DNA of 42,745 nt. It comes from an uncultured Pelagibacteraceae bacterium. Lineage in GTDB: Bacteria; Pseudomonadota; Alphaproteobacteria; Pelagibacterales; Pelagibacteraceae. The notes beneath the pieces were generated by a model. It was not told where the DNA came from and did no database searches. It saw only the letters and a program-made list of their open reading frames with translations. Below are positions 28,582 to 33,353 of this stretch, piece by piece. The DNA lies in NCBI GenBank assembly GCA_902523095.1, contig CABYYE010000007.1:1-42745 (forward strand). Reading direction: 5' to 3'. The position numbers and the translations under genes are program-made. Within the stretch, counting starts at the first letter, position 1. Each line of letters opens with the position of its first letter.

Positions 28582-29487
28582 TTAATATTCCCTTTGAAAC
28601 TTATGCTTTTTTCCAGCTTTTTTAGCAAGGTTAATTTGATTTTGCCTCATACGAAATCTTATTTTTTGTGAATTTGAGAGTGTGTCATAACACCTTGAGC
28701 ATGAAACACCCTCTTCATATTTGTAGGATTTTTTATCTTTTGCAGAAAAAGGTGTTCGACATCCGCTACATACAGAGTAAGTTCCTTGTTTTAATTTGTG
28801 TTTAAGTGATATTCTGTTGTCAAAAACAAAACACTCTCCCTTCCATAAACTGTCTTTCTTCTCAGTTTTATTTAAATAGTTAAGTATTCCACCTTTTAAT
28901 TGGAAAACATTTTTAAAACCTTTTCTTTTTAAAAAAATAGAAGCTTTTTCACACCTTATACCTCCAGTACAAAACATTGCTACTGGTTTTGTTTTCTTAA
29001 TTTTTTTTAGATATTTTGGAAAATCTCTAAAGTTTTGAATTTTTGGATTTATTGCATTTTTAAAAGTCCCAACATCATATTCAAATGGCTTTCTAGCATC
29101 TATAACTAAAGTTTCTTTGTTTGAAATAAGTTTGTTCCATGCCTTTCCAGAAATATATCTATTAAGTTTTTTATTTTTTGAGTTTATTTTTAAACCTAGC
29201 GGAACAACCTCATCTTTAATTTTTATTTTGCCTTTATGAAATGGTTGAAAATAACTTTGAGACATGTTCTTACTATCAAAATTCTTAAACCTAAATTGCC
29301 TTTTTAATATCTTTATTATTTTGCTTACATCATATTTTTTACCTACAATTGTCCCGTTTATACCCTCTGCTGATAAAACTATTGTGCCCCTAACATTGTT
29401 TTCAGAAATTTTCTCTTGGAATAATAATTTATTTTTTTTCAAAAATTTAATTTTTTTAAACTTATAAAAACCATAAATTGTATACAT
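28582..29487 (-). CDS. trhO: tRNA uridine(34) hydroxylase TrhO (rhodanese family, YceA type)
   Basis: The 301-residue protein matches TrhO, which uses oxygen to make 5-hydroxyuridine at position 34 of certain tRNAs. It has an N-terminal acylphosphatase-like domain (GTIVLSAEGINGTIVG), a rhodanese domain with the active cysteine in MFCTGGIRCEKAS (Cys173), and a C-terminal pair of CxxC motifs (Cys240/243, Cys263/266). The ATG at 29487 shares a base with the stop of the methyltransferase gene (TAATG), so translation is coupled; a TTG 15 bases upstream is possible but less likely. Confidence 0.93.
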   Translation of the reverse strand: MYTIYGFYKFKKIKFLKKNKLLFQEKISENNVRGTIVLSAEGINGTIVGKKYDVSKIIKILKRQFRFKNFDSKNMSQSYFQPFHKGKIKIKDEVVPLGLKINSKNKKLNRYISGKAWNKLISNKETLVIDARKPFEYDVGTFKNAINPKIQNFRDFPKYLKKIKKTKPVAMFCTGGIRCEKASIFLKRKGFKNVFQLKGGILNYLNKTEKKDSLWKGECFVFDNRISLKHKLKQGTYSVCSGCRTPFSAKDKKSYKYEEGVSCSRCYDTLSNSQKIRFRMRQNQINLAKKAGKKHKFQREY

Positions 29488-30140
29488 TATTTTTTGATAC
29501 AAACTGTAAGTCCATCTCCTATCGGAATAATATTTTTTACAATTCTGCTATCTTCCTTAATGTGTTTATTAAATTCTCTTATAATGTTAGTAAATTTGTC
29601 GTTTTTTTTAACATCTGCCACTTCTCCGTGCCATAAAACATTATCTATAACAATAAGCCCATTTTTATTAATAAGTTCAATACATATTTCGTAATAATTG
29701 AGATAATTTTCTTTATCAGCATCTATAAAAATTAAATCGTACTTTTGATTTAAATCCTTCAACTCTTTTAAACTTTCAATAGCAGGTTTAATGATTTGTT
29801 TTATTTTTTGTTCATTTGCCTTTTCATAAAATGATTGAGCTTTTTTACTAAATTTAGAACTTTTATCTAAACTAATCAGAAGCCCGTTAGGTGGAAGTGC
29901 TAAAGCCATAGACAAAGCACTAAAACCTGTAAAACTTCCTATTTCTAAAATCTTTTTAACATTAGAAATTTTTATTAATGTTTGTAGAAATTGTGCTTGA
30001 GAAACTGAAATCTGTAATCTCTGTTGATCACCTAGACTTATATTATGTTGGATAATTTCTTTCTGAACATCAGTTAAAACTTCTGAGTGATCAATAATAT
30101 ACTGTTCAAGATTTTCAGTTAAGTCTAATTTTTTAGGCAT
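29487..30140 (-). CDS. Family-3 O-methyltransferase (CCoAOMT-like), possible tRNA ho5U34 methyltransferase TrmR
   Basis: The 217-residue SAM-dependent enzyme has the SAM motif KKILEIGSFTGFSALSMAL, the metal-binding FIDADKENY and VIDNVLWHG (Asp-Asn), and ends PIGDGLTVCIKK. This fold includes catechol methyltransferases and Bacillus YrrM/TrmR, which methylates 5-hydroxyuridine-34 of tRNA to 5-methoxyuridine. Overall sequence looks nearer to the catechol-type branch, but the TAATG coupling to trhO, whose product is TrmR's substrate, favours the tRNA role. It follows gatB by 2 bases. Family is sure; the specific substrate is inference. Confidence 0.85.
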   Translation of the reverse strand: MPKKLDLTENLEQYIIDHSEVLTDVQKEIIQHNISLGDQQRLQISVSQAQFLQTLIKISNVKKILEIGSFTGFSALSMALALPPNGLLISLDKSSKFSKKAQSFYEKANEQKIKQIIKPAIESLKELKDLNQKYDLIFIDADKENYLNYYEICIELINKNGLIVIDNVLWHGEVADVKKNDKFTNIIREFNKHIKEDSRIVKNIIPIGDGLTVCIKK

Positions 30141-30142
30141 AA

Positions 30143-31612
30143 TTAGCCTTTTAAAAGTTTTTTTAGAATTTCATTTGTCAATTGAGGGTTTGCTTTTCCA
30201 CCAGATAATTTCATAACTTGACCAACAAAAAAACCAAATAATTTTTCTTTTCCAGCTTTATACTGATTAACTTTATCTTTATCTTTTGACAATATCTCAT
30301 TAATTATTTTTTCTAATTCTTTAGGATCACTTTGTTGTTTCATCCCTTTTGTCTCTATGATTTTTCTTGGATCATCTCCGCTTTCAACCATAATTTCAAA
30401 AACCTCTTTTGCTATTCTACCTGAAATCTCTCCTGATTTTATTGATTGAATTAACCCTGCAAAATTTTTAGCGGAAATAGGTGATGTAGAAATATTGAGA
30501 CTTTTATCGTTCAGCATTGCAAATAAATCACCCATCATCCATGTAGCTGCGAGTTTTTTGTCAGACAATTTTGCAACTTCCTCATAGTAATCAGAGATTT
30601 CTTTTTCAGAAACTAATACGTTTGCTTCATAAGAGTTAAGCCCATATTCTTTAATAAATCGCTCTTTTTTTTTATCTGGCAACTCAGGTAAAGATTTTTT
30701 TAAATCATCAATTAATTTTTGTTCAAGTTTCAGTGGTAACAGATCAGGATCAGGAAAATATCTATAATCGTGAGCATCTTCTTTTGATCTCATTGATCTT
30801 GTTTCGTTTTTTTTTGTATCAAATAATCTTGTTTCTTGATCTATCTCTTTTCCGTCTTCTAGCAATTCAACTTGTCTATAAGCTTCATATTCTATCGCCA
30901 TTTGCATAAATTTTATTGAATTTACATTTTTTATTTCACATCTTGTGCCAAGTTTTTTATCACCTACCTTTCTTACTGATACATTTACATCTGCTCTTAA
31001 TGAACCTTCTTGCATGTTACCATCGCAAGTACCCAAGTATCTCATTATAGTTCTAAGTTTTTTTATATAAGCATTAACCTCATCGGGGGACCGAAGGTCG
31101 GGCTTACTAACAATTTCCATTAATGCAATTCCAGAACGATTTAAATCAACATAGGTGCTTGAAGGATCCATATCATGAATGCTTTTACCCGCGTCCTGTT
31201 CTAAATGAAGTCTTTCAATGCCAATTTCTTTTGAACCATAAGGCATATCTAATAAAACCTTACCTTCACCAACAATAGGATTTTTATATTGTGATATTTG
31301 ATAACCTTGAGGAAGATCAGCATAAAAATAATTTTTTCTGTCAAAAACTGAATAATTATTGATTTTTGCATTCAAACCTAGACCTGTCCTTACAGCTTGT
31401 TTAACACACTCCTCATTAATAACTGGCAACATTCCAGGAAAAGCAGAGTCAATTAAACTAACTTGTTTATTAGGATCAGCTCCAAATTTGGTGGATGAGC
31501 CTGAAAAAAGTTTCGAATTTGAAAGGACTTGAGCATGAACTTCTAAACCTATAACTACTTCATACTTCTCTTTCTCTCCATTAACAAAATAATCAAATTT
31601 TCCTTTACTCAT
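30143..31612 (-). CDS. gatB: Aspartyl/glutamyl-tRNA amidotransferase subunit B
   Basis: The protein activates and amidates misacylated Glu-tRNA(Gln) or Asp-tRNA(Asn) with ammonia from GatA. Motifs are [33 protein letters not shown] (in parts: PQGYQISQY), [16 protein letters not shown] and a C-terminal YqeY-like tail domain ([20 protein letters not shown]). I chose the ATG at 31612, which overlaps the gatA stop as ATGA and has GGTGG just before it, giving 489 residues; an ATG at 31621 would add MVV. It sits between gatA and the methyltransferase gene. Confidence 0.97.
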
Positions 31613-33066
31613 GACCACCATTTTTTAATTTCATTTTTATAACCACAATTTTTTTCAAACGCATAACCAATATTTAAAATTTTTTGTTCATCTAGAGCCT
31701 TGCCAATTAATTGTAACCCTAGTGGGTAACCTTGTTTATCTAATCCAGCAGGTAAAGATAAAGCTGGTAATCCTGCTAAATTTACAGGAACTGTAAATAT
31801 ATCGTTTAAATACATTGATACTGGATTATTTGTTTTTTCTCCTATCTTAAATGCCGAGCTAGGTGTTGAGGGTGTTAAAATAGCATCAACCTTTGTAAAA
31901 TTGTCATCAAAATCCTTTTTAATTAATTGTCTAACTTTTTGTGCTTTTAAATAATAAGCATCATAATAACCTGAAGACAAAACATAAGTCCCTATTAATA
32001 TTCTTCTCTTTACTTCATCACCAAAACCTTCAGATCTAGTGTTTTCATACATTTCAATTAAATCTTTCCCTTTTTGTGATCTGTGTCCATATCTTACACC
32101 ATCATATCTTGCTAAATTCGATGATGCTTCTGCGGGAGCAACTATATAATAAGTCGGCAAAGCATACTTGGTATGTGGTAGTGAAATATCAATTAACTCA
32201 GCGCCTAAATCTTTTAATATTTTTTTTCCTTTTTCCCAAAGTTCATCAATATCATTTGGCATATTATCTACTCGATACTCTTTGGGAATACCAATTTTCA
32301 TTCCTTTAATATTATCTTTTAAATTTTTTGAGTATGTTTCTTTTTTTTTATTAATTGAGGTTGAGTCTTTTTCATCAAAACTAGACATTGCCTCAAGCAT
32401 GATTGCACAATCAGAAACAGTTTTTGTCATCGGTCCTGCTTGATCTAATGAAGAAGCAAATGCAACTATACCCCATCTCGAACAAAGACCGTAGGTTGGT
32501 TTAAGACCTACGGTACCAGTAAATGATGCTGGTTGTCTTATAGAACCGCCGGTATCTGTACCAATTGTTGCTGGAGTTAAATCGGCTGCTAAAGCTGAGG
32601 AAGATCCTCCTGAAGAGCCTCCGGGGACTAACTGATCTCCAACAGGATTAATTACGTTTCCAAAAAAACTCGTCTCATTCGAAGAACCCATAGCAAATTC
32701 ATCACAATTTAATTTTCCAAGTAGGAAGGCTCCGCTGTCCCATAAATTTTTTGTAACAGTCGACTCATATGAAGGAACAAAATTATTTAAAATATTGCTT
32801 CCAGCTGTAGTTTTTATATTTTCTGTACAAAATAAATCTTTTACTGCTAAAGGTATTCCGTGAAGAAGTAGATCATTATTAGGTTTATTATCAAATTTTT
32901 TTGCATTTTCTAATGCTTGATCAAATGTTGTTGTTACAAAAGCATTAAGTTTTTTTGCATTTTCAATATTCTTTATATATGCTTGTGTAAGTTCTAATGA
33001 AGATATCTTCTTAGACTTCACACTTTCTAAAATTTCACTTAAACTTTGATTTGTTATATTGCTCAT
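31609..33066 (-). CDS. gatA: Aspartyl/glutamyl-tRNA amidotransferase subunit A
   Basis: The 485-residue amidase-signature enzyme releases ammonia from glutamine for tRNA amidation. The catalytic triad is present: Lys76 in [10 protein letters not shown], Ser151 in PGGSSGGS and the nucleophile Ser175 in [12 protein letters not shown], with the same 99-residue spacing seen in well-studied GatA. The N-terminus and length are normal. The ATG overlaps the gatC stop by one base (TAATG) and the stop overlaps gatB, so all three subunits are coupled for equal synthesis. Confidence 0.98.
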
Positions 33067-33353
33067 TACTCGACCACTTTCGGAACTACAAAAAATTCTT
33101 CGCTTTTTTTAGGAGAATTTTTAAGAATTTTTTCTCTTATTTTTCCATCACTTATTTCATCTTTTCTTGATCTTAATGACTGGTTCAAAATCGAAGTTAA
33201 TGGCTCAACTTTATCAGTGTTTAATTCATTTAATTGTTCGATAAACTTAAAAATTGAGTTTAAATCTTTAGTTAAGCTATCTACTTTAGCTTCATCTACT
33301 GATATTCGAGCTAATTTGGCTACATGTTTAATTTTTTCTTTATCTAAAGACAT
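33066..33353 (-). CDS. gatC: Aspartyl/glutamyl-tRNA amidotransferase subunit C
   Basis: The 95-residue subunit wraps around GatA and GatB and stabilises the complex. It begins with the typical [24 protein letters not shown] helix region (in parts: [28 protein letters not shown]), followed by [20 protein letters not shown] and ends in a VPKVVE tail. It is the first gene of the six-gene minus-strand operon. The 51-base gap to the divergent ruvX holds an inverted repeat that touches its start codon. Confidence 0.94.

Follow-up and report, generated by a model that had tools for sequence, protein, structure and literature searches.

A putative two-gene route to 5-methoxyuridine at tRNA position 34 in Pelagibacteraceae, combining TrhO with a SynOMT-like methyltransferase

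Known U34 enzymes and the trhO locus

Hydroxylated derivatives of the wobble uridine (U34) widen the reading of U34, and CmoA/CmoB constitute the Gram-negative route. SynOMT from Synechocystis (PDB 3cbg, locus slr0095) has been described on small catechols. In Bacillus subtilis, the methyltransferase acting on 5-hydroxyuridine-34 (ho5U34) is TrmR (YrrM, PDB 5zw3/5zw4), whose gene adjoins trhP1/trhP2. Transfer RNA with ho5U34 from an E. coli cmoB-deletion strain has served as a TrmR substrate (PMC6599085). 5-methoxyuridine-34 (mo5U34) is described as the Gram-positive xo5U, with TrmR as the Gram-positive route (PMC10516636), and in Mycobacterium tuberculosis a TrmR homologue is noted for which no hydroxylase is known (PMC10531406). 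Ehrlichia canis is listed with trmR and without trhP, and yceA-trmR fusions in Phytophthora sojae, P. ramorum and Phaeodactylum tricornutum helped to identify TrhO, in the account of Sakai et al. (2019, PMC6599085). Coupling of trhO with a methyltransferase gene thus has a precedent in these published fusions, where the same two activities are physically coupled, but as a single fused gene. In searches of an open-licence library, no paper turned up that describes mo5U, or TrhO together with a methyltransferase, in Pelagibacter or SAR11; a first-pass annotation likewise knew of no description of the pair in SAR11, whereas trhO-trmR fusions elsewhere had already been published (PMC6599085).

The window analysed here is a stretch of 42,745 nucleotides from an uncultured Pelagibacteraceae bacterium (contig CABYYE010000007.1) whose assembly is 75% complete. 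On its minus strand, five genes follow each other in the order gatC-gatA-gatB-methyltransferase-trhO, with gaps of 2, -13 and -1 nt (gatB, gatA and gatC, respectively), and a MATE transporter ORF starts near the end of trhO, on the downstream side (Table 1). The last gene had been called trhO at first pass and this is upheld. By sequence its product belongs to the TrhO (YceA) family: it scores 267.3 bits against the NCBIfam equivalog model NF001133 (cut-off 170), PF17773 (UPF0176_N) and PF00581 (Rhodanese) are above cut-off, and Rhodanese_C is slightly under (24.9 versus 26.9). The domain make-up is that of known TrhO, as is the CXGGXR-type loop, here CTGGIR, a motif described for TrhO in PMC6599085. 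The nearest solved chain is 4f67, Legionella lpg2838. Two features set this TrhO apart from the known system: it is the sole type of U34 hydroxylase found in our sample of the order, and in the window's family its gene is fixed behind the methyltransferase gene.

Table 1. Features of the locus, in window coordinates.
Feature	Position	Strand	Basis or remark
trhO (UPF0176/YceA family), 301 aa	28582-29487	-	NF001133 equivalog score, UPF0176_N and Rhodanese domains
CTGGIR active loop of TrhO, Cys173-Arg178	28954-28971	-	translation and alignment to 4f67
TAATG junction, methyltransferase stop and trhO ATG with one common base	29485-29489	-	sequence
Methyltransf_3 SAM O-methyltransferase, 217 aa, putative ho5U34 O-methyltransferase	29487-30140	-	PF01596
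Asp166-Asn167 of the methyltransferase, other metal-ligand-type residues	29640-29645	-	invariant columns, same 25-sequence alignment as for DADK
DADK of the methyltransferase, metal-binding-type Asp140 and catalytic-type Lys143	29712-29723	-	invariant columns, 25-sequence alignment
gatB	30143-31621	-	NF004015, 831 bits; upstream member of the conserved block
gatA	31609-33066	-	TIGR00132, 604 bits
gatC	33066-33353	-	TIGR00135, 96.5 bits; first gene of the conserved block

The methyltransferase stop codon and the trhO start codon had been reported to share one base, and bases 29489-29485 do read TAATG on the minus strand. Of 48 family loci whose junction was read, 36 show this form. We rejected the overlap as a special feature: with longest-ORF starts, 22 of the 35 same-strand neighbour pairs of the window overlap, six of them by exactly one base, so the junction does not by itself point to a common function. 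Judging from gene spacing, gatCAB, the methyltransferase gene and trhO are probably transcribed together as a single unit, and translation of trhO may be coupled to that of the methyltransferase. No terminator-like match occurs on the strand of these genes between 26800 and 33700, the sole such match being on the other strand.

We lean towards the reading that TrhO makes ho5U34 and that the methyltransferase, without being a TrmR, makes mo5U34. TrhO would use O2 to hydroxylate U34 in tRNAs with U-starting anticodons that serve the NYN boxes (Pro, Thr, Ala, Val, Ser and Leu), yielding ho5U34. The adjoining cation- and SAM-dependent methyltransferase would methylate the 5-hydroxyl to give mo5U34, and an enzyme belonging to the catechol/caffeoyl-type (SynOMT-like) branch, or to its vicinity, would replace CmoA/CmoB or TrmR. 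Action of the methyltransferase on tRNA, with mo5U as its product, is what we infer.

Sequence, structure and phylogeny of the methyltransferase

The methyltransferase is a Methyltransf_3 protein (PF01596, 198.4 bits) and has in common with TrmR its superfamily, its fold and the reaction proposed above. The first-pass annotation had related it to YrrM/TrmR, an assignment that the comparisons below do not support. The protein scores 162 bits against SynOMT and 72 bits against TrmR (5zw3), and its closest solved chains are 3cbg, 3r3h and 3tr6, in a set that includes Legionella and Coxiella enzymes, Leptospira 2hnk and SafC from Myxococcus (5lhm/5log). SynOMT and SafC, among the closest solved enzymes, are 40% and 37% identical to it, with the DADK and DN motifs in common; the window's enzyme differs from both in being fixed to trhO. 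An AlphaFold2 model (pLDDT 94.3) fits 3tr6, SafC and 3cbg at Z scores of 32.8-32.3, as compared to 28.4 for TrmR 5zw3 (rmsd 2.2 over 205 residues, 27% identity). Asp140, Lys143, Asp166 and Asn167 are invariant in an alignment of 25 sequences, and we take their metal-ligand and catalytic roles to be those of the cation-dependent O-methyltransferase family. The motifs DADK and LWHG replace the DAAK and LFKG of TrmR.

Two trees were built, a quick one of 76 rows (64 of the 106 methyltransferase candidates, the window protein and 11 reference chains, in which row 5lhm is SafC according to its entry title) and a careful one restricted to 49 of these rows, whose bootstrap had not settled. In the quick tree, the family methyltransferases form one clade (SH-aLRT 98) within SynOMT-like enzymes. 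In the careful tree they lie between a SynOMT-like core (22 rows, 92/88) and a clade of TrmR with Anaplasma-type proteins (96/98), and TrmR is monophyletic (98/92) to the exclusion of the window's methyltransferase. The family does not form a single clade in this tree, although a single clade is not rejected by the AU test (p 0.469). Joining the family to the SynOMT-like core costs 1.3 log-likelihood units (p 0.445) and joining it to TrmR costs 13.4, which is not formally rejected (p = 0.073); on the quick tree, TrmR plus family gives p = 0.52. The methyltransferase thus looks SynOMT-like and outside TrmR proper, by sequence and model, with its deep placement unsettled. The possibility raised at first pass that it groups with catechol- or caffeoyl-type enzymes is borne out roughly, since it appears nearer to SynOMT and SafC than to TrmR; the grouping is not firm.

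These data bear on the idea that the protein is a genuine TrmR (YrrM) orthologue that has diverged. The common fold and the two AU tests leave room for it; the difference in bit scores, the separate TrmR clade, the larger likelihood cost and the motif variants all weigh on the other side, and we regard such an orthology as very improbable. TrmR candidates occur elsewhere in the class: the Anaplasma-type methyltransferases L076, L077 and L079, which group with TrmR (96/98 in the same tree), all come from genomes that also have trhO, and are by sequence candidate true alphaproteobacterial TrmR proteins. Another alphaproteobacterial genome (G293) harbours two SynOMT-like methyltransferase genes in tandem (L080:4366-5767).

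Net charge was considered as a hint of RNA binding and proved uninformative: it ranges from -6 to +22 in the nine family methyltransferases computed, which implies no constant basic surface, and that of TrmR itself is -7. Two family members (L041 and L042) are very basic, with net charges of +16 and +22 and pI values of 9.6 and 9.8.

The similarity to SynOMT, SafC and caffeoyl-CoA O-methyltransferases favours the main rival to our reading, in which the modification stops at ho5U34 and the methyltransferase, a small-molecule catechol-type enzyme with another substrate, neighbours trhO only as part of a frozen gatCAB block. SafC is called a catechol 4-O-methyltransferase in a reference title of PMC6543040. 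An alphaproteobacterium, Bartonella henselae, is reported to contain ho5U and to be devoid of cmo5U (PMC10965804), in line with ho5U as an end product. Also against an mo5U34 module is the related enzyme Rv0187, reported to use free ho5U as a methyl acceptor but to show no significant activity towards ho5U-tRNA (given as data not shown in PMC6543040). On the other side, a core gene kept in genomes of about 1.0-1.5 Mb would more plausibly be a housekeeping gene than one for optional catechol chemistry, and the gene neighbourhoods described below make us consider this rival rather unlikely.

Linkage of the methyltransferase and trhO genes

The sample of the order comprised 147 genomes, 94 from the window's family and 53 from a sister family. 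In the window's family, the methyltransferase gene is present in 90 genomes and trhO in 89, and in all 89 genomes with trhO the methyltransferase gene lies directly upstream on the same strand; the first-pass annotation had allowed that the two genes might not be linked in relatives, which is false here. Contig ends affect two genomes: the methyltransferase gene is cut in G122, and in G034, counted within the 89, it is split across two contigs with one piece adjoining trhO. The methyltransferase is the only strong PF01596 member of the family genomes, other matches reaching at most 48.6 bits. We rejected the joint loss of the pair in four of the 94 genomes as evidence of coupling, because these four also lack gatB and the stretch is apparently missing from their assemblies. 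The overlap is ordinary, but the pairing of the two genes in the family is beyond chance.

The linkage extends upstream. Among 20 diverse family loci, the order gatC-gatA-gatB-methyltransferase is intact in all 20, followed by trhO in 19 and by a contig end in one, and the gene downstream of trhO varies. As the whole block is conserved, a single event in an ancestor may account for the linkage seen across the family, as the ho5U34 end-product reading supposes. A further point for that reading comes from the sister family, where trhO occurs in 38 of 53 genomes and never adjoins a methyltransferase of this type. TrmR was considered as an explanation for these unpaired TrhO proteins and rejected: the Methyltransf_3 proteins fetched from the sister family (15 loci, one of them twice) best match rat COMT among the references. 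At L061:3209-6973 and at L062-L066, the rat-COMT-like O-methyltransferase gene sits in a recurring cluster whose partners look, from their sequences, like genes for a reductase and for a further SAM methyltransferase; other sister-family loci (L136-L139, L141-L144) encode a 210-aa COMT-like protein.

Evolutionary rates were compared in the window and 19 fetched loci, each of these 20 having all eight genes. Controlling for six neighbours, distances of the methyltransferase and TrhO correlate with a partial r of 0.75, the highest of 28 pairs, and none of 3000 permutations gave a value as high. One clade of the window's family (L041-L044) stands out in that methyltransferase and TrhO are both fast-evolving; without it, partial r is 0.39 and ranks 4th of 28. 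Rate co-variation is therefore modest support for coupling, coming largely from one lineage where both genes sped up.

We then looked at broader samples. In the class (210 genomes), the methyltransferase is matched in 71 genomes, trhO in 70 and both in 20 (23.7 expected); leaving aside the three genomes of the window's family, both occur in 17 (22.0 expected). These 17 have the two genes on one contig in five cases and adjacent in one (G178), bearing in mind that in draft genomes separate contigs could hide adjacency. In the phylum (319 genomes), the numbers are 49, 180 and 23 (27.6 expected), and among the 22 genomes with both genes besides the window's own, the two share a contig in six and are never adjacent, with the same reservation. 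Co-occurrence outside the family is thus nowhere beyond chance in the class and phylum samples, which again favours ho5U34 as the end product.

Isolated pairs occur nevertheless. The G178 genome is the alphaproteobacterial MAG IP29b_bin.96, and its locus (L067:5446-6973) has trhO next to a SynOMT-like methyltransferase gene in divergent orientation, with matches 61 bp apart. A genome_contigs scan with the G178 protein, which detects close relatives only, returned 10 loci, two of which are flanked by trhO; locus L126 and locus L067 belong to one contig. The second isolated pair is found in the uncultured gammaproteobacterium AH-324-A07 (L134:4974-6325), on a 240-kb contig, where a methyltransferase gene precedes trhO with a 16-base overlap. 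It is flanked by YceI, CDP-alcohol phosphatidyltransferase and CycH-like genes, and gatCAB is absent nearby. The TrhO of this pair is short (232 aa), with little sequence beyond the rhodanese domain, and scores 228.8 against the cut-off of 170. In quick trees (43 rows in the case of TrhO) both of its proteins lie near those of the family, on long branches, and holding family and L134 methyltransferases together is not rejected (AU p 0.785); in the careful tree, the L134 protein and that of G306 are at the edge of the SynOMT-like group. The gammaproteobacterial pair may be a single transferred pair or a separate pairing; whatever its origin, it stands without gatCAB.

This observation also bears on a third possibility, that the methyltransferase serves translation but has a different target, for instance a hydroxyl elsewhere in tRNA or rRNA or a residue of a protein, along the lines reported for an Anaplasma relative. 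Its linkage to gatCAB as well as to trhO would be explained, whereas the gammaproteobacterial pair ties the methyltransferase to TrhO itself, which produces a hydroxyl of the kind suited to such methylation. We consider this possibility improbable.

TrhO can also be found alone. In a lineage outside the order (f25, two genomes, 71 and 79% complete), TrhO falls inside the family's part of the TrhO tree and has no adjacent methyltransferase (L068:1048-1932 and L069:5574-6473), making a transfer of trhO alone possible on the basis of sequence. No relative of either protein was found in viral_contigs by a scan that detects close relatives only, and a plasmid search gave 73 records with a best identity of 42.8%.

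The strongest evidence for the mo5U34 module is the unbroken linkage within the family together with the return of the pair without gatCAB at L134, and in divergent orientation at L067/L126, both of which count against the methyltransferase being a neighbour of trhO only through a frozen block. The strongest counter-evidence is the catechol-type relatedness of the enzyme and the lack of a general association of such enzymes with trhO.

Decoding needs and biological meaning

Other U34 routes were searched for in the 147 genomes of the order. No peptidase-U32 (TrhP-type) hydroxylase was found. In the search for cmoB proposed at first pass, no genome passed the TIGR00452 cut-off of 275 bits; weaker matches occur in 145 of the 147, the best at 62.4 bits, and one of 14 control genomes is above cut-off.

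The tRNA genes of a relative that is 98% complete (G038) were examined for decoding needs. Among the 28 tRNAs found, Pro is served only by UGG and Thr only by UGU, whereas Val has UAC and GAC, Leu(CUN) UAG and GAG, and Ser(UCN) UGA and GGA. No C34 tRNA was found in these five boxes. Ala tRNA and Ile-GAU were not found either in this genome, perhaps because the rRNA operon is missing. G-ending codons make up 4.8-7.2% of each of the six NYN boxes in the window ORFs. These data support the view that a U34 with expanded decoding would be required by the tRNA set of this relative. When U34 hydroxylation is lost in E. coli, decoding of GCG and UCG reportedly falls (PMC6599085).

A broader and more tentative possibility is that the SynOMT-like enzymes include, or have beside them, a second lineage of ho5U34 methyltransferases distinct from TrmR. 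Such a lineage would give mo5U34 to a widespread Gram-negative family with small genomes, and would have been carried between classes as a two-gene module with trhO, as in the gammaproteobacterial pair. It would also hint that the native substrate of SynOMT may be ho5U34, a hint drawn from the mo5U reported by LC-MS in Synechocystis RNA (PMC12860351).

If the mo5U34 reading is true, mo5U34 would also occur in streamlined Gram-negative bacteria, through a different methyltransferase branch and one oxygen-dependent hydroxylase. A wobble modification generally attributed to Gram-positive bacteria would here be made by an enzyme different from the known one, and a core gene that models identify only as an O-methyltransferase would gain a function. 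Decoding with a minimal tRNA set would, in these organisms, be tied to oxygen.
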